36,033 bases of DNA. Origin: a virus. Shown here piece after piece: positions 159 through 28,228 of this stretch. The stretch covers positions 1 to 36,033 of IMG/VR virus record IMGVR_UViG_3300041586_000038; one strand, 5' to 3'. A program made the position numbers and the translations under genes. Below the pieces are notes generated by a model, which did not search any database, had not been told where the DNA came from, and was given only the letters and a program-made list of their open reading frames with translations. Numbering within the stretch: position 1 is the stretch's first letter; each line of letters opens with the position of its first letter.

Positions 159-568
159 AGCGTTACCTCGCCCTCGATCACATACGATCCTTTGAAGTAG
201 GTTTTGACATCACCTGTTGGGAAAGTGACCTGAACATCGTATTGATATGCACCAGCCATTGTCGGAACCGGGTGATACCCGACACGGAAAATGCCGTTTA
301 TCGCGTCTGTGATTACGATGCTTGTTCCATCAGTTGTTGACAGGTCCAGAATTGGCAACTGGCCGGCACAAGCCCGCACCTGCATCTTGATGCTTGCGTC
401 AGTCAGATCAACCGCCACGCTATTCCGCTGAATGGTGAACGACAAAGCATCTGCCGTGTCACCTGCGTATTGGGGGGGCCAGTCATACAATCCGGGGCGC
501 ATCAGGACATTCCACTTCATCTTGTGGATGCCTATGGGATATGTGGCATCCATCCGGGGAAGCCGCAC
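155..568 (-). CDS. Ig-like fibre-base protein (BppU N-terminus-like)
   Basis: This is up to 137 residues. The body (DTADALSFTIQRNSVAVDLT, then DASIKMQVRA, then NGIFRVGYHPVPTMAGAYQY) is an Ig-like beta sandwich of the kind found at the N-terminus of baseplate/fibre-base proteins such as BppU. The start is uncertain: GTG 568 has CACAGGA touching it with no spacing, ATG 553 and ATG 520 have weak sites, and the same frame stays open upstream to 661 with protein-like sequence but no ATG, GTG or TTG. The stop TGA is interlocked with the GTG of the next gene (GTGA, 155-158), so the two are coupled. It probably attaches or displays the following fibre. Confidence 0.75.
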   Translation of the reverse strand: MRLPRMDATYPIGIHKMKWNVLMRPGLYDWPPQYAGDTADALSFTIQRNSVAVDLTDASIKMQVRACAGQLPILDLSTTDGTSIVITDAINGIFRVGYHPVPTMAGAYQYDVQVTFPTGDVKTYFKGSYVIEGEVTL

Positions 569-624
569 GTCCTGTGCGTCATTGCCCGAATAGATACCAG
601 ATGTAGCGATCCGTTTCCAGTGGC

Positions 625-12600: not shown

Positions 12601-15600
12601 GATTTTGAGGTAAACGCCACGCGCGCTGCCTTCCGGCCCGATCATCGTCATGGAAACATCGCCAATGTTTGACGTGTTCCCTTTTTGAATGCTGATTTCC
12701 TTGGCGGCCTTGCCTTTCTTGTCCGTGATAGGAGTCCAGCCAGCCTCTTTCAGCACTTTTACCGTGGCGCGCAGCATGGTGTTGGCGGCGTCATGGAACG
12801 CAATGCGAGTTTCATTGAACCGTCCATCCTCGCTGCGATCATCCTCATAATATCCGTCCAGATTTCCATCCATATCAGGAAAAGCGCGCGTGGCCCCCGC
12901 TGATGCAGCCTTTGGCGCGGCGGCCTGTGCTGGCTTTTCCGCTTCTGGTGCTGTGTCACCGATACCCAAGGCGTTCTTCACCTCATCGGCGCGCGCGCGT
13001 GAGAAGATGAAACCACCTTCTTTTGCGTCCCACTTGAATGAAATATTGCCGACAACGGGCGGGGCGTCCTGCGCCACTCCCAAAAGAACGGCGGCCCTAT
13101 CACGGACATTCTTGATCGTAGGGGCGTCTTTAGGCGGATTTTTCGCCATATCGGCTGTAACGCTGTCAACCTCGGCCATCTGGGGGCCAAGCGGCAACTT
13201 GTGATCGCCATTTTTGATCCACATCAGGAACTCAACCGCCGACATTTCGGTAATGTTTCCAAAGCGCAACGGCCCAGAGTTGTCCGAGAACCCACGGTAA
13301 TAATTGGCCTTGGCTACATCAGGACCGGGATACCCGATCATGGACTTGGTTTCATCGAACTTTCCGGTATCGGGGTTGATCTGGTCGATCACCCAAACGG
13401 TTTCGGCCTTTGGATCGGGGCCCATGTAGAAGTCGAGGTGATCCCCATCGGCCCCGGTTGTGCCCAGTATCCGGCCATAGTCGGCGGGCATGGTGACAGA
13501 CCAAGCCTCGCCACCGGCATCAGTGCCGCTGCGGGTCGATCCCTTCTTGTTCTCAATGGAAAGCGTCAGGCCGCGCCAATTCACCTTGCCAGTCTTGTAG
13601 TTTTCAGCTTCGGCCTGCGCCGGGGTGGGGTTGGGATTGGTTTCAGCGGCGGCGGCATCGACCTCGGCGCGGGTCGGCGCGGCGTCCTTGATTGGGAACG
13701 CATCTGCAAGCGCAAGCGCCAAGGCATCCGGGCGCGATAGCTTTTGTGATGCCTCACCCAAAACGCGAAGGACCACTCCATCCTTGCGAACGATGGAGCC
13801 CCAGAACACATTCGTGGCAGAACTTCCAATGTCTGTCAGGCGGTAAACTGTGCCATCTGGCATCCGCACCGCCTTTTCGCCACTCCTGCGGGTCATAGCC
13901 TCGGTGAAGTCCTCCGGTCCGTTGACTTCCTCTGCGGGCCCTTCGTCACTCACGGCGGCTGGGGGTGTTGACTCCGCCGTGACGGAGGTAATCGGTTTAT
14001 CTCCGTCACGGGCGGGCACAGGCGCGGCATTGTCCTCTGCCGGGGTTCCCAAGTAATCTTTGGCCAGGTCGGCGTTAATGAACCATCCTGGTGAACCATC
14101 GGCCATTGCCTTCTTGAAGCTGTAGCTGTCGATCTTGTCAGCATCAGCCTTTTTGAAATCGCTGGCCGGGATCACTACGCCTGTCTTTTTTTTGCCCAAA
14201 TTGGTGATGTGCGTCACAGGATCGCGCGCAAGGGCGTCCCCTACGGCGCTGCGCAACGTCTCGTCCGAAGGTAGGGGAGAGGTAGGGGAAGGTGGGGGAA
14301 GGTCGGCATCTGTGGCCGGGTTTACTGCACCTCCACCGTTGCCGGTTGCAGTTGCACCATCCACACCATCATTATCAGCGGGAATAACGGGTCCGTCAGC
14401 GGCATCGACTGGCCCGCCTTCAGGAACCGTTGTAGTGATTTCTCCTGTTTCCGGGTCAAAAGTTTCATTTGGAGCAAGGCCGCTACGGACTCCTGCGCTG
14501 TCAGCCACATTGGAAGGTGCGGCAGGTTTTGGGGTAAAGGCTTCCCCTGCAATGGAGACAAGGTTGTCATATTTCTTGCGCAGCCCTTTCGTCCAACCAC
14601 CTTTTTCGGCGCGGTCCTCAATGGCGCGGGCCTCATTTGCGGCGATTTGCTCATTGTTCAGGTTTGGTTTTGCGGGCGCGGGCGGTGCTTCCGCCTTTGG
14701 CGCGGGCGTGGGCGTGGGCTTTGCGCCCGCTGGCTTTGCCTTCGCTGCCTCAGCGGCCAAGAGGTCTGTGGCCTTGGCTTCATTCACCGCTTTGTCGAAT
14801 GTTGCGGGCGGCACGGGCATTTCCCTGCCATCCACGCGCACGATCGCCACGCCATTTTCCTCGCGCTGGAACACAGCGTCCACCACGGCACCGGCACGGG
14901 TCTGCATCCTGACCGTTGTTCCGGGCTTGAACTCCGAAAACATGGGCGGCGGGGGATCAACGGGATCGGCCTCTGGGATTGGGGTCAAGTCGGGCGCGCT
15001 GGCCGCGATGGATTCGATGGGGCCAGGGGGGTTGGCAGTAACCCCGCCCATCACCGGGAGGGAATCCGGAGGGGAAGCGGGCGGGGCTACCTGACCTTGA
15101 CCGCTGCCTTCGGCCAAGGTGTTCTGTTTGCGCGGTGGGGCACCCATATCGCGCTCGAAATTCGTAGGGTCTTGCGGGCCGGGTCCAACCGGGCCCTCAC
15201 CAAAGATCGTGCCGCCGTTTGTGGGGGATGGAAGCGCAAGCATGGGCGGCGCTTGTGTCTCGTCCTGACCTCGCGCGCCACCGGGGATACCGGCCAAACC
15301 ACCGGGTCCAACACCGCCAAGCGCGCCAAGGATGAAATCCCCGAACGTGCCTTCGGTGACGTTGATATCCATTTTGGCGGCTTTGCCTGTGCCATAACGG
15401 GTAGCGATTGTCTCGGCGGCTTCCTGCAAGCCTTCCTCGGTGGAAGATAACGCCGCCTTGCCTGCCACGCGGGTGGCGATACCCTTGCCAGCAAGCGCGG
15501 CTGTGGGCTTGGTCAGGATTGCACCTGTCAGATAGCCACCAAGGCCACTGATCGGCGCAGTCATAAGGAACGCTGCACGCTCTGTTTCGCGCAAAACAAC

Positions 15601-16548: not shown

Positions 16549-16559
16549 AGGAAAGCCCC

Positions 16560-16592
16560 CAAAAGACAGATTGGTGGGAGGCACTTCCTGTG
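16560..16592 (-). promoter_or_regulatory. Bipartite leader element upstream of giant gene
   Basis: On the minus strand: CACAGGAAGTG, 15 nt, TCTTTTG, ending 11 nt before ATG 16548. Both blocks and the spacing are identical to the element at 27983-28015 in the capsid-gene leader, while the 15-nt spacers differ mostly. Chance identity of 18 aligned positions in two short leaders is very unlikely. A phage-specific promoter is the first guess; an RNA-level control site is the alternative. Confidence 0.6.
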
Positions 16593-16646
16593 GCTACCTT
16601 ATCTTCAATCAATACCCCATTTAGGGGGCATCAGACAAGAACCGTA

Positions 16647-18713
16647 TCACGGGCGGCGCAACACGGGCGGCATTGGGGCTGTTCCACCCTCCATCGGCGC
16701 GGGACTGCCCTGCGCCGACTGGCCTGCCAGTGCCGCCTCGGCCTCGGCCCGTGCTTCGCCGTATGTCAATGTGACCGTCCCATCCAAGCCCTTAGACGCT
16801 TCAAGAATGACCTCCGTCACTTCATCAATGCGTTTTTCGCGCTTTTCCTCGGCCTGCGCTACTGTTTTTGCATCAGGCACAGCCCCAAGTGCCGCCGCCT
16901 TGGCCGCCTCGGTCCTTTGCTTCCAGTATTCAAAAGCCTGCTCTGGGGCCAAGAGCGTGATGCCCATGGTCACAACGTCCTCTGGGTTGTCGTATTCCTG
17001 CTCGAAGGTCTTGCCTGTCTTTTCATCGCGGAACACAATTCTGGCCCCGGCAATGTCGCCTTTGCGGTTGGTGATGTTCCCCTCGGCGTCCATGAACCCC
17101 GATTTGTCTGTCACAATGGTTGTATCATCGCCAAAGTAATCAAGGCGGTTATACCCTTCCATGATTTCGCTGGCAAAGCTGTCAAAGTCACCCACGGACG
17201 CGGCAAAGCTGGCGCTCGCCCAATTCCGCATCCCAGCCTTGACCTGGCCCTGATCCATGAACTCTTGAAACTCTTGGGCCTTGTCGATCTGGCCCCGGCG
17301 CAAAAACTCTTTCATTACGATTGGGGCGCCGACCTCGCGGTAGCGTTCAAGGAATGAATCAGCGGCACGTTCGCGCTGCGCTTCGGTGAAGGGGCGATTG
17401 CCTGCGGCCCCTAGCTGCGGTGCGTCTTGTGCCGCTGCCGCTGCTGCGGCCTCAATAGCTGGCGTGCTGGCGGTTCCCATTGCGGCTGTGGCCGCCCCGG
17501 CAAGCTGCTTGGTCGCGGGGGATGCGTTTTCAGGCACATTCGACACGCGCGGGCCGGGGCCTGTGGCTGATGCGGGCTGTTGCTGCGGCGGCTGGCCGGG
17601 ACTGACCGGGGGCTGACCCTGGGCCTGCGGGGCCTGCTGCATCTGCGGTGCTGCGCCCAATGTCGGAAGATATGGCAATTCAACACCGTCAGGCCCGCCT
17701 GTCGCATATTTCAGCACCGGGTTGATCTGTCGGTTCAAGGCATTGCTGGTCATGATCACGGCATTTGCGGCGGCGGTTGGAATAGCGTCTATCGCCGCTA
17801 TTCCACGGTTTTTTGCTTCTCGCAAATCAGGACCGAGGCCATTCTCACCGAATTTGAAGTCATAGTTTGGCTTTGATGCGTCAAGCTGTTCTTGAATATT
17901 CTTGCGAAAACCGTCCATGTCAAAATTGGGTGCGGCGGTTGGCGTGGCACCCTTGGTTTGTGTCGCCTTCCATTCTTCTTCCAGTGCCACGGCATCAGCC
18001 ATGGCCGACCGATACTCGGCTGTGTTTCTGGGCGTCTGCTGATCTTCTGGAGGCAACATAGGCTCAAGCCTGCGCAAACGCTCGGACGCCATTGCGCGCC
18101 GCTCGTCAAGGGTAGGCGGCTGCTGCCCCACACGTCGATCATCTTGAGGCATTTGCATCTGTGGCTGCGCCTGCGGAGGCTGTGGCTGCATCTGCTGCGG
18201 CTCTTGGCCTACGCGCCTGTCGTCCATCGGCGCATCTGCGCGGCGCGGCCCCGCCTGTGCGCCCATCGGTGCGCTTGGATCGAATCCACGCTCAAACGCG
18301 GCAACGGACGCCGAACCACGGGTCGCTGTGTCTACCGCAGCCCCAAGGTTCCTCGCCACTTCGCTTGCCGGTCCTGGGGGAGGTGCGCCCATCGTGCTTG
18401 TTCTGGCTTCCCCCGCTCCCGCGCCGCCTCCTGATCCATTTGGAGGTGCGCCGAGGGTCGCGTCATAGGCATCCTGTGCGGCCTTGCGATAAGCATCATC
18501 ATCAGCGCGCGCGCGATCATAGTCAGACACAGCGCGGCCTTGGTTGCCGCGCGCCCATTCATGCCGTTCAGAAATTCGCCCTTGTTCATCCGCATAATAC
18601 CCATCCATCTTTTCTTGACGCTTTTTTGCGTCCTTACGATCATCCCAACCGTTGCGGATTTCGCGGCCTCTGAAAAAGCCATCGACAAGCCCTGCAATAC
18701 CATAAGCACTCAT
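16647..18713 (-). CDS. Large internal virion protein with disordered Pro/Gln middle
   Basis: This is a 688-residue protein. It starts MSAYGIAGLVDGFFRGREIR, a motif that resembles the start of the upstream hydrolase-like protein. Residues ~90-220 and ~355-430 are strongly Pro/Gln/Ala/Gly-rich and probably disordered, with repeats of DDRRVGQ and GAPP. The C-terminal ~250 residues are helical (QRERAADSFLERYREVGAP, then EAKTVAQAEEKREKRIDEV-like). No catalytic motif was seen. Its position, coupling (ATGA) and composition suggest a core or ejection-channel protein that passes into the cell with DNA. It precedes the giant gene by a 98-nt gap. Confidence 0.7.
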   Translation of the reverse strand: MSAYGIAGLVDGFFRGREIRNGWDDRKDAKKRQEKMDGYYADEQGRISERHEWARGNQGRAVSDYDRARADDDAYRKAAQDAYDATLGAPPNGSGGGAGAGEARTSTMGAPPPGPASEVARNLGAAVDTATRGSASVAAFERGFDPSAPMGAQAGPRRADAPMDDRRVGQEPQQMQPQPPQAQPQMQMPQDDRRVGQQPPTLDERRAMASERLRRLEPMLPPEDQQTPRNTAEYRSAMADAVALEEEWKATQTKGATPTAAPNFDMDGFRKNIQEQLDASKPNYDFKFGENGLGPDLREAKNRGIAAIDAIPTAAANAVIMTSNALNRQINPVLKYATGGPDGVELPYLPTLGAAPQMQQAPQAQGQPPVSPGQPPQQQPASATGPGPRVSNVPENASPATKQLAGAATAAMGTASTPAIEAAAAAAAQDAPQLGAAGNRPFTEAQRERAADSFLERYREVGAPIVMKEFLRRGQIDKAQEFQEFMDQGQVKAGMRNWASASFAASVGDFDSFASEIMEGYNRLDYFGDDTTIVTDKSGFMDAEGNITNRKGDIAGARIVFRDEKTGKTFEQEYDNPEDVVTMGITLLAPEQAFEYWKQRTEAAKAAALGAVPDAKTVAQAEEKREKRIDEVTEVILEASKGLDGTVTLTYGEARAEAEAALAGQSAQGSPAPMEGGTAPMPPVLRRP

Positions 18714-19459
18714 TGTGGGTAATCTCCCTGCCGCATCGTTGGTTGTGGTGCGCCAAGCGCGCGCGGCTTCACCGAACCGCCATTGGCTTCAAATTTGGCG
18801 ATTGCCTGGTCAAGGTCAGCATCAGAAACGCTGTGAAACCCCTCCCATTCGGCGCGCAGCCCTGCACGTTTTGCCGCGGGGGTTTTTCCGCCCGATATCC
18901 GCTGGCCCGCAAGGTGGTTTACCATGTTGGTTTGGGTTTCTTGATTGAACACCGTGTCACTGGGCAAGCCCATTTGCTGCGCGGTGTTGCGCATGGTTGT
19001 GCCGACGATCTGCCCAAAGCCCATGGGCGTTGCCACACGCCCAACCTTGCCTTTGACCCATTGGCCATACTCGCCCGAAGGCTTGGAAAACTCGGCCAAT
19101 TCGTCCAGCGTCATTTTGGAAACGTCCACGCCCGCGAATCTTCCGCCGTTCTGGCTGTGGCCAAACAGGGTGTCATAGCGCCCGCCACCTTCCTTTGCGG
19201 CCAGAAGGCTTGCAAAATCCCCATTGCCGGGAACACCTGCACCGCCCGATCCGGGCTTGCCATAGCCAAAACCGCCCGCGCCGGGTTGCATTTTAGTATA
19301 GGCGGGGCCCGCACCCTGCGGAGGTGCGCCCATGCTGCCCATCTGGTCGGCACGATTGTTGTGATAAGTCATCCAATCGTCGTGGCGCTTTTGTTCGTTT
19401 TTCCGTTCACGCGATGCGCCAAAGCCTTGCGCAAACCCTGCAATTGCTGACAGGCTCAT
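18710..19459 (-). CDS. Internal virion peptidoglycan hydrolase-like protein
   Basis: This is a 249-residue protein. After an N-terminal segment (MSLSAIAGFAQGFGASRERK) and a Gly/Pro linker (GAPPQGAGPAY), residues ~80-190 resemble lysozyme/transglycosylase-like phage hydrolases: FASLLAAKEGGGRYDTLFG with E89 as a candidate catalytic acid, then DVSKMTLDELAEFSK and PMGFGQIVGTTMRNTAQQMG. Such a protein could open the cell wall during DNA entry. Overlaps of 4 nt (ATGA) with the genes on both sides show translational coupling. The catalytic assignment is by pattern only. The C-terminus ends ALGAPQPTM, echoing a motif in its two neighbours. Confidence 0.75.
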   Translation of the reverse strand: MSLSAIAGFAQGFGASRERKNEQKRHDDWMTYHNNRADQMGSMGAPPQGAGPAYTKMQPGAGGFGYGKPGSGGAGVPGNGDFASLLAAKEGGGRYDTLFGHSQNGGRFAGVDVSKMTLDELAEFSKPSGEYGQWVKGKVGRVATPMGFGQIVGTTMRNTAQQMGLPSDTVFNQETQTNMVNHLAGQRISGGKTPAAKRAGLRAEWEGFHSVSDADLDQAIAKFEANGGSVKPRALGAPQPTMRQGDYPQ

Positions 19460-20388
19460 ACTGCCATCCTCTGCTTTGGTGCGCCCAAGGCTTCCACCTT
19501 ATCGGCAAGCTGTTTCACAGCCCCCATGGTCAGGCCCATCATGCTGATAGCGTCGATAGACTTCCCATCTCCCATGCCAGTGTGCTTGGCGAAATCCTCG
19601 GCATAGGGGCCAACGTGGCGTTTCCCATCACCCTCGCCCTTATTGTAGGTCCACGCCTCGACCGGCATCTTCTTGACCGCGCCAAGGGCGTCCATGGGCT
19701 TTTTGTCGTGCTTGATGTCTTTGGAGGAAAAGAACGCCCCCGCCACGCTTCCAAGCGCGCCGCCTATGGCCCCAAGGCTCGATTGCTTGGCCTGCCACGC
19801 CTGCATCTGTTGATCGTACTGCTTGCCAAGGATATTGGCCTGCTGGCCGTAGCCCTGCATTGCCCCGCCAAATCCCGCTTGCCCTGCGCCATTGGAAAGG
19901 CCCATTGATGTGCCGGGGTTTACGGCAAGGCCAGACCCCATGTTTATTGCACTGGCCCTCATGCCTTGGCCGACCTGCTCGACGTTGCGGCGCGCGAGGT
20001 TCTTGGCCCCGGCCATTGCCAGCGCCCCATCTGTCCCGGCCTTGGCGCTGGCGTTCATAAACCTTCCAGACATGGGGCTTACGCCCGTTGCCATTGCCTG
20101 CCGCGTGCGCTGATCCCCTGCCTGCCGTGTGGCCAAGGCAACATCGGCCCCGGCCTCATTGGCGGCGCCCTGCATCCGCGCTGGGCTGGCATAATCCCGT
20201 GCCTCTTGGATGAACTGATCTTGAAGGGGCTGGAACACGTTTTTGTAGCGGTCACGATCTTCACCGGCCCACTGATTTGTGACGACCGCCTGATCCTTCA
20301 TCCATGCAAGCATTTCCTGCCCGGTTTGAGCGGACATTTTGGCAGCAATGCCCATGTTAGGATCTGGCCTTGGTGCTGAACCGCCCAT
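19456..20388 (-). CDS. Internal virion protein with C-terminal S74 intramolecular chaperone
   Basis: This is a 310-residue protein. Residues 1-203 are helical, Ala/Gln/Gly-rich and carry no fibre signature. Residues 204-220 form a glycine-zipper-like hydrophobic stretch (SLGAIGGALGSVAGAFF). Residues 221-300 match the peptidase S74 chaperone domain: SSKDIKHDKKP, then EAWTYNKGEGDGKRHVGPYA, then EDF and a coiled coil ending KQLADKVEAL. S74 domains trimerise a spike, then cut themselves off at a Ser near the start (S221 or S222 here). An S74 module in the ejected-protein cluster rather than on a fibre is uncommon. The stop overlaps the next ATG as ATGA. Confidence 0.8.
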   Translation of the reverse strand: MGGSAPRPDPNMGIAAKMSAQTGQEMLAWMKDQAVVTNQWAGEDRDRYKNVFQPLQDQFIQEARDYASPARMQGAANEAGADVALATRQAGDQRTRQAMATGVSPMSGRFMNASAKAGTDGALAMAGAKNLARRNVEQVGQGMRASAINMGSGLAVNPGTSMGLSNGAGQAGFGGAMQGYGQQANILGKQYDQQMQAWQAKQSSLGAIGGALGSVAGAFFSSKDIKHDKKPMDALGAVKKMPVEAWTYNKGEGDGKRHVGPYAEDFAKHTGMGDGKSIDAISMMGLTMGAVKQLADKVEALGAPKQRMAV

Positions 20389-20397
20389 ATTAGAACC

Positions 20398-20862
20398 TCA
20401 ATCGCCACTTTGGGCGGTTTGCGTTTCGTAATTGGCAGTTTGTCCAGACGCTTCCCAGCGCCTCATGGAAAACACAATAGCATCTTCTGCCCCCGGTGCG
20501 ATAGCTGGCTTCTTGTATTCAAACTTGAAACCCACCTTCAGCGCCGCGACCTGCGCCGGGATATTGCTTTCCCTGATCGGCGCAAACAGCGTGGACAGTG
20601 CCAACATGCGGGGATGGAACGAAATCAGGAATATTCCCTGCACCAATTCCGGCCCCATGGTGTGACCGTTTATCATCCCAAAGTGCATCTCGGCCGCACC
20701 GCCCTCGAAGCCCTGAAACACGATAATCGCGCTTGGCGGATCATCTGGCTCATTTCGCACGCCGAAAGCCACAGCGTCAGCGCGCCAGCCCGTTGATCCT
20801 GTTGCTGTCTTGGCCGCTTCCAAAAGCTGCGGCTGGTTGGTCTTGTAGAAATTGGCAGGCAT
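20398..20862 (-). CDS. GNAT-like (acetyltransferase-fold) virion or accessory protein
   Basis: This is a 154-residue protein. The central to C-terminal part (ELVQGIFLISFHPRMLALST, then APIRESNIPAQVAALKVGFK, then IVFSMRRWE) follows the GNAT pattern: a strand, a helix, the N-x-x-A-x-x-x-x-x-x-G-F segment that lines the acetyl-CoA pocket, and a final strand. The usual Q/RxxGxG/A acetyl-CoA loop is not obvious, so the fold may be retained without catalysis. GNAT-fold proteins next to internal virion genes are known in podoviruses. The next gene follows after 9 nt, with GAGG spanning the stop. Confidence 0.55.
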   Translation of the reverse strand: MPANFYKTNQPQLLEAAKTATGSTGWRADAVAFGVRNEPDDPPSAIIVFQGFEGGAAEMHFGMINGHTMGPELVQGIFLISFHPRMLALSTLFAPIRESNIPAQVAALKVGFKFEYKKPAIAPGAEDAIVFSMRRWEASGQTANYETQTAQSGD

Positions 20863-20910
20863 CTTGTTTCCCCTCTGATATTCAAGTCACACGTTGGCAA
20901 ACGTGGTGAA

Positions 20911-20940
20911 AATTGGGCGGCCCAATTTAGCCGCCCAATT
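20911..20940 (-). terminator. Probable Rho-independent terminator/attenuator
   Basis: Perfect 11-bp inverted repeat AATTGGGCGGC/GCCGCCCAATT with an 8-nt loop. On the minus strand it is followed by TTTT-like sequence (AATTTTC), giving a weak U-run. It lies 14 nt after the signal-peptide gene and before the next gene, in a 92-nt gap. Confidence 0.55.
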
Positions 20941-20954
20941 CAGGCATTACAGGA

Positions 20955-21296
20955 TTACCAGCTTGGACCGGCGCTGGAGATTTCATTGCCGAACGCATCC
21001 ACAGCGCCACCGCCGCGCAATGCGACCTGCAAGACAACGCCAGCTGGCAGAGTGACGTTTGCCACGGCGAAGGCTCTGGCCTTGTCAGCGTCAAACACAA
21101 TGCTGCGGGTCAGGCCATTCTCGCCAAGTTTCAGAATGTGGCGCTCGCCGGCGACCAGAACGGCCAGCGCAGGCACAAAGATGCCGCTTTCAAGGGTCGA
21201 TGTGCGACTGACCTCATACATGCCGCCAGCCATTGCTGTAGATGTCGAAAACAGCATTGTCAGGGTTGCCATAATGGCAAAAATAATGGCCTTCAT
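20955..21296 (-). CDS. Signal-peptide-bearing small phage protein
   Basis: This is a 113-residue protein. The first ~23 residues (MKAIIFAIMATLTMLFSTST then AMA) form a textbook Sec signal peptide: one Lys, a hydrophobic core and an AMA cleavage site before GGMYEVSRTST. The mature part is about 90 residues, beta-rich, and contains GERHILKLGENGLTR. A good GAGGAAAC ribosome-binding site lies before ATG 21296. A secreted or periplasmic protein inside a virion-structure module is unusual. It may act in superinfection exclusion, lysis or envelope modification; none of these is proven. A hairpin terminator candidate follows its stop. Confidence 0.75.
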   Translation of the reverse strand: MKAIIFAIMATLTMLFSTSTAMAGGMYEVSRTSTLESGIFVPALAVLVAGERHILKLGENGLTRSIVFDADKARAFAVANVTLPAGVVLQVALRGGGAVDAFGNEISSAGPSW

Positions 21297-21338
21297 TTTA
21301 GTTTCCTCACTTCAATACCTGTTACCGACAGGCGCGGT

Positions 21339-22124
21339 TTAGAAAAAGATTACCGCAAGCAGCGCGATGTTGCGCGGGCGGGTTTCATCTCCGCCAGTTG
21401 CATCGACCGTCAGGGGGTGCGTGTGCGCCCCGGCGCTGGAAGTGGTTATATTGCCTGAGTTTTCCGCTTGGCTGCCGATGGTGTCGTAATTGCCGCCGGT
21501 GCCGTCGCCGTCAATGGAAAGGGTGTGCGTATGCGCCCCCGCAGATGCAGCCGTACCCGTGTGCGTGTGAGAGTCGAACGCATCTGCCTGCGCAGAACCA
21601 AAAGCCCGACCTGCATCGACCCCGCGAGCATCATCCCAACCCCTTGCAAACTCTCCGCGCATGTCGGGGAGGTTGAAGGTGGTTGATCCGTTGCCAACGC
21701 CGAAAACAGTGCCAATCTTGGTAAATAGCCTTGCATATGTGGCGCGGGAAACCGCAGCCCCGTTTGCCTTGAGCGTCCCTGATGGCGGGGTTGTCATCGC
21801 AAAGTAGGCGATCTGACCAACCATCATCTCCGCTGCAATAAATGCGATTGCATCCGCGACTGCCGCCGTTCCAAGTTCAAGGTTCGTTCGCGCAACGCTT
21901 GCATTGTTCAAATCAGAGAGGTTGTTGTTGGCCTCCAAAAGCGCAATGTCAGTTGCCGCTTGAATAGCCGGCAATGATAGGAATGCCGTTGCACCGTCAC
22001 CAATGCGCAGCACTTTGGTGTCGGACTCATAGCCAGGTTCACCGGCAGCAAGCACTCGATTTGAGGATGTCCATGCCGCGGCTGTGCCTGTGCGTAACTT
22101 GAGGCGGGCTATAATGTCAGGCAT
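21339..22124 (-). CDS. Tail fibre with Mtd-like N-terminus and tail-collar C-terminus
   Basis: This is a 261-residue protein. Residues ~5-50 (LKLRTGTAAAWTSSNRVLAA then GEPGYESDTKVLRIGDG) match the N-terminal module found in the Bordetella phage major tropism determinant and many fibres. Residues ~105-190 carry the tail-collar signature (YARLFTKIGTVFGVGNGSTT then FNLPDMRGEFARGWDD), followed by His/Thr-rich HTHT repeats and a typical fibre ending RPRNIALLAVIFF. It starts 3 nt after the previous stop. The protein probably contributes to host recognition. No reverse transcriptase or template repeat is in this window, so nothing here shows that it is a diversified DGR target. Confidence 0.85.
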   Translation of the reverse strand: MPDIIARLKLRTGTAAAWTSSNRVLAAGEPGYESDTKVLRIGDGATAFLSLPAIQAATDIALLEANNNLSDLNNASVARTNLELGTAAVADAIAFIAAEMMVGQIAYFAMTTPPSGTLKANGAAVSRATYARLFTKIGTVFGVGNGSTTFNLPDMRGEFARGWDDARGVDAGRAFGSAQADAFDSHTHTGTAASAGAHTHTLSIDGDGTGGNYDTIGSQAENSGNITTSSAGAHTHPLTVDATGGDETRPRNIALLAVIFF

Positions 22125-22127
22125 GGC

Positions 22128-22646
22128 TTAGGCTCCGATCTGAACGGCAGAAATTTGGGTTGCTGCTGTCGTGGGTGTCAGTGTGGTGAATTCGCTAAGG
22201 CGCTGTGATGCGTTTGCCGTTGTTGAGGTTGCCTGCAAAGTCAGTGTCTTGCGATCTGCAACCGACACAATGCCTGACAGGTGCAGTTGAAATTGATAAT
22301 CCACCCCTGTCAGGTGCGTTTGCTGTGCAGCCATGTAAGCCAATGCACCGTCAAAAATACGCACAGCCTTGTCACCGTTCGCAAACACTCTGAATTGAGC
22401 AACCGCATTGATAAGCCATATGCCCCGGGCGATTGAAATGCTGGGCCCGCTGTACCAGGTTGACGCTGCGGGCATGTATAAGTCTGCGGATAACTCTTTG
22501 GCGGCGCGTGTAATGTTGCGGTTTTCGGCCAGCCCCTTATTCAGTTCATCCAGCCTGACAGCGCGCCGCCCCTCAAGGCCGCGCTTGCCAAGCAGAACCT
22601 CAAGATCGACAAGTCTTGAGGTTTCCATTGGGGTTGTGCCGCGCAT
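22128..22646 (-). CDS. Fibre-like protein with coiled coil and beta-rich head (hypothetical)
   Basis: From ATG 22646, which overlaps the preceding stop, this is 172 residues; the longer upstream frame overlaps the nozzle-like gene and is not used. The first ~55 residues (ETSRLVDLEVLLGKRGLEGR then AVRLDELNKGLAENRNITRA) look like a trimeric coiled coil. They are followed by a strand-rich part (WYSGPSISIARGIWLINAVA, then LHLSGIVSVADRKTLTLQAT) reminiscent of a C1q/TNF-like jelly-roll head. A short trimeric fibre or receptor-binding protein is the likeliest identity. This is an inference from pattern; the family was not confirmed. Confidence 0.6.
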   Translation of the reverse strand: MRGTTPMETSRLVDLEVLLGKRGLEGRRAVRLDELNKGLAENRNITRAAKELSADLYMPAASTWYSGPSISIARGIWLINAVAQFRVFANGDKAVRIFDGALAYMAAQQTHLTGVDYQFQLHLSGIVSVADRKTLTLQATSTTANASQRLSEFTTLTPTTAATQISAVQIGA

Positions 22647-24361
22647 TATACAGCCCCCATCAGTTCTTCGACGGAACCTGCCATCTTGATTGAGGCGATG
22701 GATACGTTTGAAGTCACCTCCACCTCCCAATCGTGGGCAAGAAAGCCTGACTTTATCCGCTCTGCGATATTGGGCCGATTTGATGTGTGGACCTTTTGCC
22801 CATCGGCAAAGACCTCAACAAATATGGTATCTCCAGTCAGAACGGGGCGCTGGGTGCGAACCATGATGCAAGAGAAAATGCTGGGATGGTTTGCGCGGTT
22901 TAGTTTTGACCGCCAAACCAGCGTTGCAACACCTTGCTTTTGATCGTCCCACTTTGAAACGGTGACGCCATCGCTTTGCAGAACAAAAAGATCGCCCGAT
23001 GTAACGTCCGTTAGCATGACGCGAGGCTGGACGATATTGAACGGCAGGAAGTATGGGGTTTCGCCTGACAGGTCAATTGCACCCACCCGCTGTTCTCCAA
23101 ACGCGGTAAGTGGAGCCCCGAAGTCATAGGTGATGATGTCAATATCTGCCGGGTCAGGTGTACCGCCGATCAGGAAATCGGTTGGCAACGTGTCCACACC
23201 CTCTATGCCACCATCAAACAGGTCAAAATCGCCTGACGTATAGGTGAAAATGTACTTTTCATCGTAGTTTGCAGCGGTGAAACTTTCTGGCCCAAGGGCC
23301 TTCCATTGATCGCGGCTGAACATGCCTCTCGTGACAATGTTGGCCTGTGATGCGCTGATGATCACAAGCCCATCTGTGGACGGGTAAGCCGCTGCATATC
23401 CGATATCCACGATTCCGCGCCGGGACAGGCACGGCAGGTTGGCTTCCATCTTCTCCATGACAAAGTTTTCAGGATGGGTGCCTTGGGCGACATAGGGCGT
23501 ACCGCGCGTGAGGACGGCCACGGTTGAACCAAACGCGGCCAAGCCGACGATATCAAAATCGACAGTCAGGACGTATTTTTCCGGCCAAGCATGGGGCTGG
23601 TAGGGTTCACAGAAATACAGGTCTTTGCCGACAAACGCCGCCATCATGCCGTTGGGCAGCGTGGTGATGCCCGCAAGCCCTGCCGGGGGCGGGTCATAGT
23701 CGGTTGACGCGATGAACTCCTGCAATGGGGTAACTGTAGTGTCCAAGGCATAGGTGGTGCTGGCGGCCGCAATTTCAGCGGCAAAGAAAAGCCCGGTTGC
23801 GCCCGATGCGCTTGTCTGGCTGCGGTAGATGCGGATCAGGGTGATGTTGCGGCCTGTGGGCGGCGTGACAAGCGCAGAGAGGTCGATCACCACGCCTTCT
23901 GACCACTGCAATTCATCAGACAGGGGGGATGGTTGGCTTTCTTCACCGAAGGCTGTGACATAGGTGTAGGCGGCATAGACCGTTTGCAGGGCTGCGGGAT
24001 CGGCTGCGGTTGCCAGCGCCACGGTTGGCTTTGTGGTTGGCGCGGCGATTGCCATCCCGTACTCGTCCGTGCCGTTGAGCATCTTTGGCGCACCATCGCC
24101 GGTGAAATACAGGCGGTTGGCGGCGATGGGGGCCGGAACCACATCAACAGGCAAATCCCACCCGATCCACGTTGCCCCGTTCAGGTATGCGGTGTTCTTC
24201 TCCGTTCCAAACACATGCACATTGCGGGTCAGGTTGATGGGTTGCAGCACACCACCTGTCAGCTTCACGTTCAGCGCGGTTTGTGCGAACCCTTCACCCA
24301 GGGCGATTGGTTCAACTCTGGGGGCTTCACCTTTGAAACCTGATATCGCCAACAGGGCCAT
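22646..24361 (-). CDS. Tail nozzle / stabilisation-like protein (beta-propeller-like)
   Basis: This is a 571-residue, beta-rich protein without membrane segments. It begins MALLAISGFKGEAPRVEPIA and has an early strand-rich segment followed by repeated Y-F-x-G, K-x-L-Y-F and W-x-G-type strands (for example VGKDLYFCEPYQPHAWPEKY and TDGLVIISASQANIV). This is the layout of tail-nozzle proteins such as T7 gp12 and P22 gp10-type stabilisation proteins, which close the short tail and bind fibres. The gene lies immediately before fibre genes, and its stop overlaps the next ATG as TAATG. Role inferred from fold pattern and position. Confidence 0.7.
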   Translation of the reverse strand: MALLAISGFKGEAPRVEPIALGEGFAQTALNVKLTGGVLQPINLTRNVHVFGTEKNTAYLNGATWIGWDLPVDVVPAPIAANRLYFTGDGAPKMLNGTDEYGMAIAAPTTKPTVALATAADPAALQTVYAAYTYVTAFGEESQPSPLSDELQWSEGVVIDLSALVTPPTGRNITLIRIYRSQTSASGATGLFFAAEIAAASTTYALDTTVTPLQEFIASTDYDPPPAGLAGITTLPNGMMAAFVGKDLYFCEPYQPHAWPEKYVLTVDFDIVGLAAFGSTVAVLTRGTPYVAQGTHPENFVMEKMEANLPCLSRRGIVDIGYAAAYPSTDGLVIISASQANIVTRGMFSRDQWKALGPESFTAANYDEKYIFTYTSGDFDLFDGGIEGVDTLPTDFLIGGTPDPADIDIITYDFGAPLTAFGEQRVGAIDLSGETPYFLPFNIVQPRVMLTDVTSGDLFVLQSDGVTVSKWDDQKQGVATLVWRSKLNRANHPSIFSCIMVRTQRPVLTGDTIFVEVFADGQKVHTSNRPNIAERIKSGFLAHDWEVEVTSNVSIASIKMAGSVEELMGAV

Positions 24362-25011
24362 TACATGAACCTCGGCTTTGTGCGGATCGGCGCGCGCTGT
24401 TTGCCTTTGATAACCTCGGTGGAGGCTTCCGCCTTGGCTGCATCACACAAAGTCTTGAAGTACCCCGACATATTCCCATCGGTGTATTCCTGATTTGGCA
24501 GGGAAAGGATGCGATACAGTGCGCCATGGGCGATTGCCTCGGCGTGTTCCCGAAACAAAAACATGGGCACTTGGTTTTGCGGCTCGATCCCACCATTGCC
24601 ATGAGTGTTGACCGGTCCCGAGGATGGGGCGAAATATAGCGACATGACCAGAGTACCGGCCTCAAACGGCAGGATAATGAACCGATCGGCGCTGTCTTGT
24701 GTGATCGAGGTCGCGCGGCCCGCCTCGGTCAGGTATTTGGCAATGTCAGCTTCATCGAAGGGCACTGCCGTAAGAGGGTTGCCGTTCAAAAGCGTGGATT
24801 GCACAGCAACGATGGTGGCTCCACCGCATGACGATTGGGGTATCACTGGGTTTGCTGTGATTTGGGTCGTCACCACTTCGCGCCAGCACCGGGTATGCTT
24901 GCAGAAATCGCGCGCGGCGAGGCGAAGGTTCTGCATGACGATCGGTTCTGGGGCTGTCGGGCAATAAGGCATGACCAGCGGCAGGAACAAGGAGAGGGAT
25001 ACGTTTGTCAT
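24361..25011 (-). CDS. Connector/tail-completion protein (hypothetical)
   Basis: This is a 216-residue protein between the adaptor and the nozzle-like gene. The N-terminal part (PLVMPYCPTAPEPIVMQNLR then LAARDFCKHTRCWRE) is a recognisable pattern of podoviral connector-region proteins of unknown detailed role: a Pro-rich strand, then a helix with 'A-R-D-F-C-x-x-T-x-x-W'. The rest is mixed alpha/beta. Its stop shares one base with the next start (24361). A head-tail joining or stopper role is inferred from position. Confidence 0.65.
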   Translation of the reverse strand: MTNVSLSLFLPLVMPYCPTAPEPIVMQNLRLAARDFCKHTRCWREVVTTQITANPVIPQSSCGGATIVAVQSTLLNGNPLTAVPFDEADIAKYLTEAGRATSITQDSADRFIILPFEAGTLVMSLYFAPSSGPVNTHGNGGIEPQNQVPMFLFREHAEAIAHGALYRILSLPNQEYTDGNMSGYFKTLCDAAKAEASTEVIKGKQRAPIRTKPRFM

Positions 25012-25017
25012 GGCGTG

Positions 25018-25743
25018 TTATCCCTCCATCGCCGGGGCGGAATAGGTTGTCTTTGGCGATGCGAGTGACTCGCGCGAATACTTGATGCCAAGGGCCTCGT
25101 TGAATGCCGCGCGGTGCATTGCCGCCCGCGGTGCCATGCCGGGGATTGAAAGGTCCATGGAAAATGCGCGAAACAGCATGTAATCGACCACGGCCTGCCT
25201 GTAGGTTTCCTTGATCGGGACAACGGCGACCCAAGAGTCCAGGATGGTTGCGGCTGACACTGGCGCGGCGATGCGGGCAGGCTCTACCGCGACCATTGCC
25301 TCCACCATTCCGCCGCCTGTGTTGGGTGGATAGACGTAGAAGTGATCCGGCTGGGCCACGTCGAACATGAAATGTTTAACCACGGCATTGGGGCGCGTGA
25401 TGCGCGGGTCGCTCCATTGGGGGCTGACCGCATCAAGCATCTGGCGCGATACCAGCGTGATCTGTGCGCCACCGGCGCGGCCTTGTGGCGATGCTGTGAC
25501 TGTATCAAGGTTGCGGGTGATGCGCAGAAGGATTGGGTATTCGTCTGGCATGTTCTGCAAAGCGCCCTTGACCAGCGGCAATTCAACGGTGCGCGCGAAT
25601 GCATTGGGCTTGTGCAGCATGATCTCACGCAGCGCCCCGTTGAGAAACAGGTTCAGCGTGGGCAACGGCCAGCGGGTAAACAGATCGTCCTGAAGGATAA
25701 GGGACGCCTCAAGCATAACGTCCCGCTGTTGGAAGTCTGCCAT
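25018..25743 (-). CDS. Head-tail adaptor (gp6/DUF6682-like)
   Basis: This 241-residue protein follows the head genes in the connector position. Helical N-terminal features (LQDDLFTRWPLPTLNLFLNGALREIMLHKPNAF) are typical of adaptor proteins that ring the bottom of the portal in podoviruses: a short helix, a W-P turn, then a long helix beginning at LNxF. It continues with beta-rich sequence (KHFMFDVAQPDHFYVYPP) and an alpha-helical C-terminal part (QAVVDYMLFRAFSMDLSIPG). The family call is from pattern memory, not from a search. The next gene follows after 6 nt. Confidence 0.7.
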   Translation of the reverse strand: MADFQQRDVMLEASLILQDDLFTRWPLPTLNLFLNGALREIMLHKPNAFARTVELPLVKGALQNMPDEYPILLRITRNLDTVTASPQGRAGGAQITLVSRQMLDAVSPQWSDPRITRPNAVVKHFMFDVAQPDHFYVYPPNTGGGMVEAMVAVEPARIAAPVSAATILDSWVAVVPIKETYRQAVVDYMLFRAFSMDLSIPGMAPRAAMHRAAFNEALGIKYSRESLASPKTTYSAPAMEG

Positions 25744-25770
25744 GCTGGGGCGTCCTTTATTGTTCGAGGT

Positions 25771-26277
25771 TTATTTGGCTTTGTTTTCTTCGCGGATCGC
25801 TTCAATCTGCGCGATGATCGTTTCAGTCTTTGCTTTGTGGTGCGGGGCGCGGCCAACTTCGGCCACGAACACAGCGCGCAAATCGTCCTCGGTCATATCT
25901 TTCAAGGGGCGGGCTGCGCCTGCGGTGTCAGAGGGCGTGGTGTGCGGGGCTGCTGGCTCCACAATGGCTGCTGGCTCCACAATGCTGGTGGTCACGTCAC
26001 CAAGGTCATCGCCGGAAACGTCTTTTTCAGCGATGATTTTTTTGACCGCGCCTGCAATGATTGCCTTTTGCTTGGCAGCGGGGGGTGTGTTGCCTGCGGT
26101 GTGGATTTTGAAACCCTCGGTGATCGACAGGAGGCGCTGGATATGCTCGGGATCGGCCACCATCGCGATATGGTCGTCGTTCTCGTCGGGCCGGAAAGCA
26201 ACGGTTTTCCCATCGTTCATCTTGATATCGGAGCCGCCTTTGCGTTTTTGCAGGCAGCGAATAAGCATGGCAGTCAT
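25771..26277 (-). CDS. Hypothetical head-module protein with a C-terminal LEM/SAP-like helical motif
   Basis: This is a 168-residue protein. The start at 26277 gives MTAMLIRCLQKRKGG; a later Met exists but the basic, hydrophobic start fits small head-completion proteins. The middle is a low-complexity linker containing SIVEPAAIVEPAAPHT, produced by a perfect 18-bp tandem duplication at 25949-25984. The C-terminus (MTEDDLRAVFVAEVGRAP then a KAKTETIIAQI helix) resembles the short two-helix HeH/LEM or SAP-type motif common in small phage proteins, which is often linked to nucleic-acid binding. Function is not known. It lies between decoration-like and connector genes. Confidence 0.65.
   Translation of the reverse strand: MTAMLIRCLQKRKGGSDIKMNDGKTVAFRPDENDDHIAMVADPEHIQRLLSITEGFKIHTAGNTPPAAKQKAIIAGAVKKIIAEKDVSGDDLGDVTTSIVEPAAIVEPAAPHTTPSDTAGAARPLKDMTEDDLRAVFVAEVGRAPHHKAKTETIIAQIEAIREENKAK
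25949..25984 (-). repeat. Perfect 18-bp tandem duplication in linker
   Basis: The unit GCTGCTGGCTCCACAATG (plus strand) occurs twice head to tail and adds one IVEPAA repeat to the encoded linker. It is in frame and probably arose by recent slippage. Confidence 0.85.
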
Positions 26278-26307
26278 TGTCGTACCCTCGTGGTTTGGAT
26301 TTGTGGC

Positions 26308-26336
26308 GGCTGGCCCTCACTATTTCGGGGCCAGCC
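26308..26336. other. Strong intergenic stem-loop
   Basis: Perfect 9-bp inverted repeat GGCTGGCCC/GGGCCAGCC with an 11-nt loop fills most of the 67-nt gap between the decoration-like gene and the next gene. No U-run follows in the direction of transcription. An mRNA-stabilising or partial-attenuation role is the simplest reading. Confidence 0.55.
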
Positions 26337-26344
26337 AGTTTGCT

Positions 26345-26794
26345 TTAGGCGACGTAGCTGTACCGAACGTGCAGCATCTTGCCTGCGCCTGCGACCACGT
26401 TGGCACTGACTTTCAGGCCGATGGATACTGGCGTGCCTGCATTGCGCGGGATAGCCGCCAGCTGCGCCAGTGTGGACGCATAGATCGTGCCAGCGGCTTG
26501 GGCTGATACCAACTCCGTGCCAACGGTGCGAACCGCTGTGGTGTCGCCGGGATTGCCAGTCATCATGCCGATGTTGATGTTGGTTGTGCCCAACAGACTG
26601 CCTATGTCCGAAATATCGAAGGCAACGATGCGGCCATTTGGCAGAACCGGCAGGATCTCCATCACGTCAGCGGCCAACAGACCTGCGGACAGGTCGATTG
26701 ATGCGACAACCGTGACGACCGAACCGGCCTTGTGCGAGGTTGCGAACGGGACTTGCGCGTTCCCTGCGTAGAATCGAGATTGTTTCGTCGCCAT
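26345..26794 (-). CDS. Capsid-associated/decoration-like protein
   Basis: This 149-residue protein directly follows the capsid gene and has a good AAGGAA Shine-Dalgarno 9 nt before ATG 26794. It is rich in small and beta-forming residues (SVVTVVASIDLSAGLLAADV, then PNGRIVAFDISDIGSL, then GTPVSIGLKVSANVVAGAGK) and ends LHVRYSYVA. That composition and its position are typical of head-decoration or minor head proteins that bind the outer shell. No sequence motif proves this, so the role is inferred from context. Confidence 0.65.
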   Translation of the reverse strand: MATKQSRFYAGNAQVPFATSHKAGSVVTVVASIDLSAGLLAADVMEILPVLPNGRIVAFDISDIGSLLGTTNINIGMMTGNPGDTTAVRTVGTELVSAQAAGTIYASTLAQLAAIPRNAGTPVSIGLKVSANVVAGAGKMLHVRYSYVA

Positions 26795-26833
26795 GGTTAA
26801 AGTTCCTTCTGCTGGCGCTATTGGGGATCAGTT

Positions 26834-26853
26834 GGGCGGCGCTACGGCCGCCC
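26834..26853. other. GC-rich stem-loop after capsid gene
   Basis: Perfect 7-bp inverted repeat GGGCGGC/GCCGCCC with a 6-nt loop in the 65-nt gap between the capsid gene and the next gene. No U-run follows on the minus strand, so it looks like an mRNA 3'-end stabiliser or processing site rather than a classic terminator. Confidence 0.5.
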
Positions 26854-26859
26854 CGCTGG

Positions 26860-27963
26860 TTATGCCGCGTTCGGATCAGTCGAGGCGGTATCAATGGCTG
26901 TCACGCCAAAGTCTTTGCCGTTGTAGCGGACCTTTTTCATGCCGCAGATCGTGCCGCAGTACACGGCAACTTGGTTGTCGGCGTCGAACATCTTTTCGAC
27001 CCAAGAGTAACGCGACCCTTTGTTTCCGCCTTGGCCATAAGCCACAACACCGGCCTGACGACCCAGCAACAGCGCGCGCGCCGCTTGGACGTTGCTGCCT
27101 GCGCCATAGTCGCTGAAACGGCGCACGTTTTCATGCTCGTGCAGGATCAGGCCATTGACCAGACCAAGCCCGCCTTTGGTGATTGGGGATTTACGCCCCT
27201 CGGAGGTGGCAAGCGCCTGCTGAACCTTGGTCCACGACAGATCGCCGGTTTCCGTGCGCAAGGAGTGGGCCTGAAATGGGGACATCAGGACCACATAGCG
27301 CTTTTCGCCTTCGACAGTGACCGGCGACATCTTCACAACGTCAGGGTTCACGGCGTTCATCATGCGCGGTTTCACCGCTACACGCTCAAGCAGGGCAAAC
27401 GACATTTTGTCGGCGGCGGCGATTGTGGCTTTGGACGTTGCAGCGCCACCGAACAAGATATGGTCTGCGTCAGGTGCTTCAACCGCGTTGCCAGCAAACG
27501 CCGCAGGGAATTTGCTGTCTTGGTTGATCGCGGAAAAGCCAGCATCGCCCGACAGGTAGACGAATAACCCTTCGTCCATCCATTCCGCGATATACTCGGC
27601 GCTCCGGTCCTTGGCGAGTTGGCGGAGGTTGTGCAGGGTGCGCTTCCGGCTCATTTTGCCGCCAGCCGATGCGCCTTTCCGCGCTTGGTCGATGCGAACC
27701 TTGTCTTGGTAGAAGGTCAGTGCTTCCTCGGACCCTTCGACCACGCTGTCGCCGTAGGTCATGCCGCCACGCAAGCGCATGTTCAGGTCGAACGATACTT
27801 CGTCGCCTGCATCATCTTCCAGTTCGGTCTTGCGCTGGATGATCGAGTTTTCGTTTGAACCAATGAAACGCGAGAAATACATCTGCTTTTCGGTGTCGGT
27901 TGCGAGGGCAATGCCCCACCGCTTTACGGCCTGTGGCGAGTTAACGCCTACTTGGGTCAGCAT
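26860..27963 (-). CDS. Major capsid protein (N4 gp56 / HK97-fold family)
   Basis: This 367-residue protein builds the icosahedral shell. It follows the scaffold-like gene and shows the layout of the N4 gp56-type capsid family: an N-terminal segment with residues QMYFSRFIGSNENSIIQRK, the block AGDEVSFDLNMRLRGG, then EGSEEALTFYQDKVRIDQ, and a C-terminal part with KPRMMNAVNPDVVKMSP and YVVLMSPFQAHSLR. There is no obvious separate prohead protease or delta domain. The start at 27963 has a strong AGGAGA 9 nt upstream. The leader is unusual: it carries two CACAGGA motifs and a hairpin. Confidence 0.9.
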   Translation of the reverse strand: MLTQVGVNSPQAVKRWGIALATDTEKQMYFSRFIGSNENSIIQRKTELEDDAGDEVSFDLNMRLRGGMTYGDSVVEGSEEALTFYQDKVRIDQARKGASAGGKMSRKRTLHNLRQLAKDRSAEYIAEWMDEGLFVYLSGDAGFSAINQDSKFPAAFAGNAVEAPDADHILFGGAATSKATIAAADKMSFALLERVAVKPRMMNAVNPDVVKMSPVTVEGEKRYVVLMSPFQAHSLRTETGDLSWTKVQQALATSEGRKSPITKGGLGLVNGLILHEHENVRRFSDYGAGSNVQAARALLLGRQAGVVAYGQGGNKGSRYSWVEKMFDADNQVAVYCGTICGMKKVRYNGKDFGVTAIDTASTDPNAA

Positions 27964-27982
27964 CTTGGAAGTCTCCTGTGGT

Positions 27983-28015
27983 CAAAAGAAAAGGTTGACC
28001 CAGACACTTCCTGTG
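27983..28015 (-). promoter_or_regulatory. Bipartite leader element upstream of capsid gene
   Basis: On the minus strand this reads CACAGGAAGTG, 15 nt, then TCTTTTG, ending 19 nt before the capsid ATG. The same two blocks at exactly the same spacing occur at 16560-16592 before the giant gene. A second CACAGGA (27971-27980) overlaps the capsid Shine-Dalgarno, and GGTCAA/TTGACC (27980-27985 with 27995-28000) can form a hairpin between the two copies. It may be a phage promoter or a translational (CsrA-type GGA) control site; sequence alone does not decide. Confidence 0.6.
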
Positions 28016-28048
28016 CATGGTTGTAAGGCTTGATACCACATATAGCGG

Positions 28049-28228
28049 TCATGGTTCAACTGTCTTTGATTTCTCGCGCCATGAGGCGGTTATCAACAGG
28101 TCTTTTGGAGCAACAATGCCGATCGACAGGCGTTGTTCTGATATGCGGGTGATATGGAAAACCACATCACCCACAATCACGGTGCCGGGGCTGTCCGCCA
28201 ATAATTCCACGTTTCTCATTAACATCAT
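28049..28228 (-). CDS. CsrA-like RNA-binding regulator (59 codons)
   Basis: This short gene starts at ATG 28228 (Met codons also at 28225 and 28219), with AAGGGG about 7 nt upstream, and ends at TGA 28049-28051. Residues 20-47 (GDVVFHITRISEQRLSIGI, then VAPKDLLIT) align with the heart of CsrA: GD, a beta-strand, then (V/L)xIGI-x-APK-(D/E)-x-x-(I/V). CsrA proteins are ~60-residue dimers that bind GGA motifs in mRNA leaders and alter translation. Two differences are notable. The N-terminal strand (MMLMRNVELLADSPGTVIV) is longer and diverged. The RNA-contacting Arg44 of E. coli CsrA falls on an Ala, although WREK follows. Altered specificity is possible. It precedes the major capsid gene, whose leader carries CACAGGA motifs. 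Confidence 0.65.
   Translation of the reverse strand: MMLMRNVELLADSPGTVIVGDVVFHITRISEQRLSIGIVAPKDLLITASWREKSKTVEP

Follow-up and report, generated by a model that had tools for sequence, protein, structure and literature searches.

The virus record IMGVR_UViG_3300041586_000038 from IMG/VR, a 36-kb stretch of DNA (36,033 nucleotides, nt) analysed here at its full length and referred to as the window, contains genes for a P22-like portal, a terminase and a Phage_capsid_3 major capsid protein. The capsid protein shares 49–55% identity with the capsids of Bcep22-like podoviruses and 65–72% with prophage capsids from Cypionkella, Gemmobacter, Frigidibacter and Paracoccus, so a host within the Rhodobacterales is probable. 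A 33-bp bipartite element, CACAGGAAGTG-N15-TCTTTTG, had been noticed in front of two late genes of this phage, the capsid gene and a giant gene for a polyvalent protein, and interpreted as a possible promoter or RNA control site (the original prediction). The element now appears to form the 5′ arm of an RNA leader that has two states and heads late transcripts of Bcep22-like phages, and it is probably read by a CsrA-like protein encoded by the phage. The arm would either fold on itself as a mini-hairpin or form the closing stem of a longer hairpin. The relevant features, some named for these two states, are as follows, where ORF stands for open reading frame and SD for Shine–Dalgarno sequence.

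28049–28228, minus strand: phage csrA, encoding a divergent CsrA-like protein (59 amino acids), directly upstream of the capsid leader; assigned from a weak Pfam match, profile, model and synteny
28030–28059, minus strand: putative late promoter of the capsid transcript, TTGAAC (28059–28054), 18 nt, TATCAA (28035–28030), within TGTGGTATCAA; read from sequence
28004–28016, minus strand: mini-hairpin element GCAC-AGGAA-GUGU (block 1), where the capsid mRNA is predicted to begin
28006–28011, minus strand: closing stem 5′ arm GGAAGU, within the capsid mini-hairpin element; from covariation in relatives and the fold
27996–28000, minus strand: inner stem 5′ arm GGUCA of the capsid leader; from the fold and relatives
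27980–27984, minus strand: inner stem 3′ arm UGACC of the capsid leader; from the fold and relatives
27973–27977, minus strand: SD of the capsid gene, AGGAG, within the closed hairpin; from the fold
27967–27972, minus strand: closing stem 3′ arm ACUUCC, immediately upstream of the capsid ATG; from the fold and covariation
26860–27963, minus strand: major capsid protein gene (Phage_capsid_3)
16609–16638, minus strand: putative promoter of the giant gene, TTGTCT (16638–16633), 18 nt, TATTGA (16614–16609), with equal spacing in the relative L013; read from sequence
16581–16593, minus strand: mini-hairpin element CCACAGGAAGUGC of the giant-gene leader
16549–16555, minus strand: 3′ closing arm CUUUCCU of the giant leader, pairing with AGGAAG (16589–16584), so that the AUG lies in the stem
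625–16548, minus strand: giant polyvalent gene, starting at ATG 16548, a start shared with a relative (MANVFSGNPYDAQ); the longest-ORF start, GTG 16584, sits inside the element
591–620, minus strand: putative promoter of the third site, CTGGAA, 18 nt, TATCTA
565–577, minus strand: third mini-hairpin element GCAC-AGGAC-GUGC, absent from the original prediction
155–502, minus strand: BppU_N-like (tail-type) gene, the third target; start probably MRPGLYDW (502), from comparison with L013

The two exact copies of the bipartite pattern were confirmed on the minus strand at 28015–27983 and 16592–16560. They were the only matches in the window when up to three mismatches were allowed, with a chance expectation of 0.03 and two copies in none of 100 shuffled sequences. 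They end approximately 20 nt upstream of the capsid ATG (27963) and 12 nt upstream of the giant-gene ATG, so their position before key late genes is as described originally. Selection on two blocks with a fixed 15-nt spacer did not hold up, as only block 1 is kept among relatives. Block 2 is ATTATTTTG in the closest capsid-leader relative (95% capsid identity), CTTATTG or TTTTTTG in others, and CTGAATTTAGGGG in the giant-gene relative. In the capsid leader TCTTTTG (27989–27983) makes up the loop and the first bases of the TGACC stem arm and is not conserved. A search of IMG/VR for the exact 33-bp pattern gave no further match, and the idea of a private repeat that this had suggested was dropped because relatives keep block 1 only. 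An extended form of block 1, GCACAGGACGTGC, was found at 577–565 on the minus strand, upstream of the BppU_N-like gene, and a covariance model detected exactly three sites in the window (28004–28016, 16581–16593 and 565–577). No known Rfam family matched the window above its gathering score.

The conserved unit is a 13-nt sequence, GCRY-ANGAN-GUGC, which is self-complementary and could form a mini-hairpin. Capsid leaders of relatives have in common GCAYAGGANGTGC, followed by an inner stem GGGTCA/TGACC whose loop varies, AGGAG, an arm complementary to the element, and the ATG. The generalised form GCRY-ANGAN-GTGC spans phages of Burkholderia, Erwinia, Serratia, Pseudomonas, Klebsiella, Ochrobactrum, Sinorhizobium and Agrobacterium, and the element-bearing Bcep22-like podoviruses infect alpha-, beta- and gammaproteobacteria. 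The pattern GCRYANGANGTGC matched 26 of the 27 records of the phage group, with 46 sites compared with 10 for a reversed control pattern, and gave 22 sites in IMG/VR contigs where the reversed control gave none. Most sites lie approximately 30–60 nt upstream of the starts of late genes for the capsid, the giant protein, endolysin and virion proteins. POI1126 has five (upstream of capsid, gp21, gp26, giant and endolysin genes), while PEp14 has sites upstream of its capsid and endolysin genes. Single matches in the giant genes of JC1, DC1 and BcepMigl were discarded, being inside coding sequence. The original prediction had been made to depend on the element occurring in other leaders, and it is present in those of many relatives. 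A5, G7, A8, G10, U11 and G12 are conserved across phages of all three proteobacterial classes and across different genes, while the partner arms vary. The loop type is uniform within one phage, all loops being ATGA without the fifth base in Atu_ph08 and AUGAN in POI1126.

The 3′ half of the element is complementary to sequence that immediately precedes or overlaps the start codon. When this duplex was compared with dinucleotide shuffles of each of 47 leaders, the mean z was −1.65 and the combined Z −11.3, values that are inflated by the phylogenetic relatedness, and hence non-independence, of the leaders. A strong stem was found in 26 leaders compared with 5.8 in shuffles (maximum 12). Covariation was counted leader by leader; MAFFT misaligned the 3′ arms owing to their unequal loop lengths. 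Site position 9 and its partner were A-U in 10 leaders, C-G in 19 and U-A in five, and position 6 and its partner were G-C in 20 and U-A in seven. In Atu_ph08 and PBC5, where the loop is one base shorter, the capsid 3′ arm has changed to match, with CACTC replacing CACGTC (CACTCATG versus CACGTCATG).

In the free leader the ribosome site is unpaired with a probability of 0.29, compared with 0.45 in shuffled leaders, and forcing the mini-hairpin brings this to 0.52 (0.53 shuffled). By calculation, the free RNA sequesters the SD, as in activation of the ymdA type described below, and the mini-hairpin conformation exposes it, with accessibility back at the shuffled level. Forcing the mini-hairpin costs a free-energy difference of 8.4 kcal/mol, compared with 2.6 in shuffles (range 1.9–3.2). 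Because the ribosome site is less open than in shuffles and regains their level once the mini-hairpin is forced, the leaders are specifically closed, and closed via the element. In some enteric leaders the stem ends short of the SD. That the element belongs to an RNA leader with a hidden ribosome site is very probable, and the RNA architecture is well supported; we infer CsrA binding, the activating direction and the transcription start.

Sigma-70-like hexamer pairs were found upstream of the sites. Their form is TTGCAT-N17-GATAAT in a number of capsid leaders from enteric and Burkholderia phages and TTGA-N18-TATNNN with TGTGGTAT in Rhodobacterales leaders, and Rhodobacterales relatives have a TGTGGTA-type sequence at the equivalent place of the capsid promoter. 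From the start of the best-scoring −10 hexamer down to the element the median distance is 19 nt, a figure from a scan that maximises the score and is supportive rather than proof. On this spacing the element is predicted to lie within about 10 nt of the mRNA 5′ end. The likely recognition hexamers are outside the element, which, judged by its position, is not itself a promoter. Of the two roles originally suggested, that of an RNA control site is borne out by covariation of the 3′ half with the ribosome-binding region, and that of a promoter is not, given the position downstream of the −10-like hexamer. The further suggestion that capsid and giant-gene expression is uncoupled from read-through gains indirect support from the promoter-like sequence upstream of each site. 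In the capsid promoters of L031, L032, L033 and L038 and at L004:9880–9950 the −10 region forms a palindrome whose arms differ from case to case (TTCGATAATCGAA, ACGATAATCGT, CCGATAATCGG, CTACCAAATGTGGTAG), perhaps an operator for a late regulator. As a general feature the palindromic −10 was rejected, since the effect was weak (3.51 versus 3.20 shuffled, with 3.49 in the best shuffled set).

The 59-amino-acid ORF at 28049–28228 falls under a 60-amino-acid ORF cut-off and was not mentioned in the original prediction. Its match to the Pfam CsrA family is weak (E=0.0055, 17 bits, below the cut-off of 27), and its homologues in JC1 and Parlo exceed that cut-off. A profile of 15 phage relatives matched RsmE/CsrA chains at 2e-6 to 1e-3. 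The AlphaFold monomer model has a predicted local distance difference test (pLDDT) score of 83, and its top 12 Foldseek matches are all CsrA/Rsm proteins, at modest E-values (0.2–0.8) and template-modelling (TM) scores of 0.5–0.6; structure comparison of the monomer model with VIA gave a Z of 4.6 for the best CsrA. The ORF is also syntenic with the annotated CsrA genes of JC1, Parlo, LASTA, DC1 and BcepIL02. The sites in the window, GC-AC-AGGA-A/C-GU, follow the pattern of CsrA sites, a short hairpin whose loop contains GGA and is flanked by AC and GU. The CsrA consensus obtained by systematic evolution of ligands by exponential enrichment (SELEX) is RUACARGGAUGU (PMC7652899), and the elements in the window retain its ACA, GGA and GU but are one base shorter.

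Every examined record that had both a capsid gene and leader sites also had a csrA gene, detected by profile or ORF reading; as a rule this gene lies immediately before the capsid gene. Capsid relatives lacking csrA (five phages and contig L012) had no leader site, and the covariance model found no site in csrA-less KLEP18-1, AP1 and phi296. In POI1126, PBC5, Atu_ph08 and L019, csrA is present but apart from the capsid gene, and the leader sites are kept. Other genes lie between csrA and the capsid gene in L015, L037, L039 and L019 (a lysis or integrase cassette in Atu_ph08, POI1126 and PBC5), and the capsid leader is retained. Phage F116 (W18) apparently has two CsrA-like genes, at 16463–16600 on the minus strand and 33378–33497 on the plus strand. 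In six Rhodobacterales host genomes we found no convincing csrA belonging to the host, the best match being a prophage copy in five. Sinorhizobium meliloti, Burkholderia cepacia and Burkholderia cenocepacia are reported to have no csrA (PMC7366521). Since the hosts searched or reported have no convincing csrA of their own, the host Csr network is not the evident target in these hosts.

Taken in this way, the closed state would have the 3′ half of the element paired just before or over the start codon, in a long hairpin burying the SD and often the AUG. In the open state the element would fold on itself (GCRY-ANGAN-GUGC, with a GGA-like loop) and free the ribosome site. The phage CsrA-like protein most likely binds the short hairpin and keeps the leaders open, which would switch on translation of the capsid, giant, virion and lysis genes together. 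We consider it likely that CsrA is the reader of the leaders. The full chain, in which late-gene translation is activated by phage CsrA bound to the mini-hairpins, is a somewhat less secure proposal that we favour by a little on the analysis as a whole, and the chances appear evenly poised that the whole podovirus group shares a post-transcriptional late regulon in which phage CsrA, as translational master activator, captures 5′ mini-hairpins and so unlocks the closed capsid, giant, virion and lysis mRNAs, including in hosts without CsrA.

Several observations, in addition to the relatedness of the leaders, weigh against this proposal. Leaders vary individually, and two (L022_b and L027_b) show no sequestration. 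Within the mini-hairpin there is no two-sided compensatory change, merely changes compatible with pairing, so the element could instead be a linear recognition sequence. GCRY is mostly paired (about 0.8) in the free ensemble too; for this reason, and for want of two-sided changes, its conservation was dropped as proof of the mini-hairpin. Canonical CsrA requires GGA, and the loop is AUGA or AAGA, not AGGA, in rhizobial and several enteric phages, which do not fit the GGA-loop pattern of CsrA sites. The canonical RNA-contact residue Arg44 in strand 5 is Ala in the window protein; Arg or Lys occupies position 44 in JC1, DC1, BcepIL02, PEp14, Parlo, Skulduggery, L011, L018, L022, L023 and L027. 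Finally, the contig L028 and the F116-like phages have csrA without a strict site. In L028 (positions 4976–5250), whose capsid is 49% identical, GCGACAAGACGC may be a drifted element.

A phage CsrA might act in the opposite direction, bridging the GGA of the mini-hairpin and that of the SD and blocking late translation until titration, into virions for instance, removes it. Repression is the commonest mode of CsrA action (PMC7492729), one CsrA peptide of JC1 was detected in virions (PMC9144972), and in Rhodobacterales leaders the SD (CACAGGAG, CAAAGGAG) supplies another GGA on the far side of the inner stem, at a distance of about 30 nt. However, rhizobial and several enteric leaders offer no corresponding second ANGA element at their SD, so bridging is not what is conserved, and a protein bound to the mini-hairpin state must compete with the sequestering stem. 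Repression is rather unlikely. Activation is favoured because binding this state would pull the leader open, a mechanism known for CsrA on Escherichia coli ymdA. An RNA device needing no protein, with csrA linked by descent only, is unlikely. Here the mini-hairpin would form first during transcription, giving a brief translation window, or would shield the mRNA 5′ end. The average advantage of 8.4 kcal/mol for the closed state, the place of the element at the predicted 5′ end and the loss of canonical contact residues from the window protein suit such a device, but the conserved bases listed above are kept across phages and genes despite changing partner arms, and the single loop type per phage in Atu_ph08 and POI1126 points to a trans-acting reader.

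In phage T4, hairpins silence late genes on early transcripts by hiding the ribosome site. Read-through silencing of this type, with the hairpin present only on upstream transcripts and late transcripts starting inside the arm and freely translated, fits the promoter-like sequences found a short way upstream, and read-through from the csrA/portal operon is what such a stem would silence. The predicted starts are about 5–8 nt upstream of the element, however, so that late mRNA keeps the arm, and the conserved mini-hairpin is left unexplained; we regard this as very unlikely. Put and nut antitermination sites lie just downstream of promoters, and put sites have no boxA. The short stem-loop that closely follows several late promoters has a similar location and might load modified RNA polymerase at each, but leaders inspected by eye showed no conserved companion such as boxA in the interval from promoter to hairpin. 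Complementarity to the ribosome site is also not expected from antitermination, which we consider highly improbable. Least credible is a DNA element, either the phage-specific promoter first proposed or an operator. It would fit the repetition upstream of late genes with a promoter adjoining, but the element sits downstream of the −10, shows two-sided covariation of the RNA type, and has an unconserved block 2.

If the activation proposal is true, phage csrA, until now listed as a moron, gains concrete predicted targets inside the phage and a testable late-gene switch. The leaders would form a natural regulon of CsrA-type translational activation that can be compared side by side among phages. 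It also predicts that CsrA specificity drifts together with the sites (AGGA, AUGA and AAGA loops), in hosts such as Rhodobacterales without an interfering cellular Csr system. The csrA genes of Lessievirus and Bcep22-like phages have been published as moron cargo or host-directed genes of unknown role, with no phage target proposed (PMC9144972, PMC10269572, PMC7366521). Beyond these moron reports, we found no description of these leaders or of phage late-gene control by CsrA in the open literature searched. The gene described here is apparently the same, and in the same place before the capsid gene, as those morons (JC1 gp47, BcepIL02 gp49 and CSP3 orf23).

Among known systems, the T4-type hairpins likewise hide the ribosome site of late genes, but in the phages examined here the arm is apparently within the late transcript and has a second, self-paired state. 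The high-affinity hairpins of CsrA and RsmE (SELEX, hcnA and RsmZ) share with the window sites a GGA loop closed by AC/GU pairs. They differ in that the phage loop has five bases (ANGAN) instead of the usual six, and its second-position G is dispensable in other phages (AUGA, AAGA). RsmQ is also a CsrA homologue on a mobile element, a plasmid, and is reported to take over host behaviour in Pseudomonas fluorescens (PMC9928087), whereas the probable targets here are phage late mRNAs. The closest parallel in mechanism is E. coli ymdA, where CsrA activates translation by destabilising a hairpin that sequesters the SD (PMC7492729). In both, a leader hairpin hides the SD and the leader contains CsrA-type sites, with opening by the protein shown for ymdA and predicted here. 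Unlike in the ymdA system, the regulator is encoded by the phage, csrA is missing from hosts such as Rhodobacterales, several late transcripts share one element at their head, and this element is itself the closing arm. We therefore propose that these leaders represent CsrA-type translational control in a new place, as a late regulon of phages.

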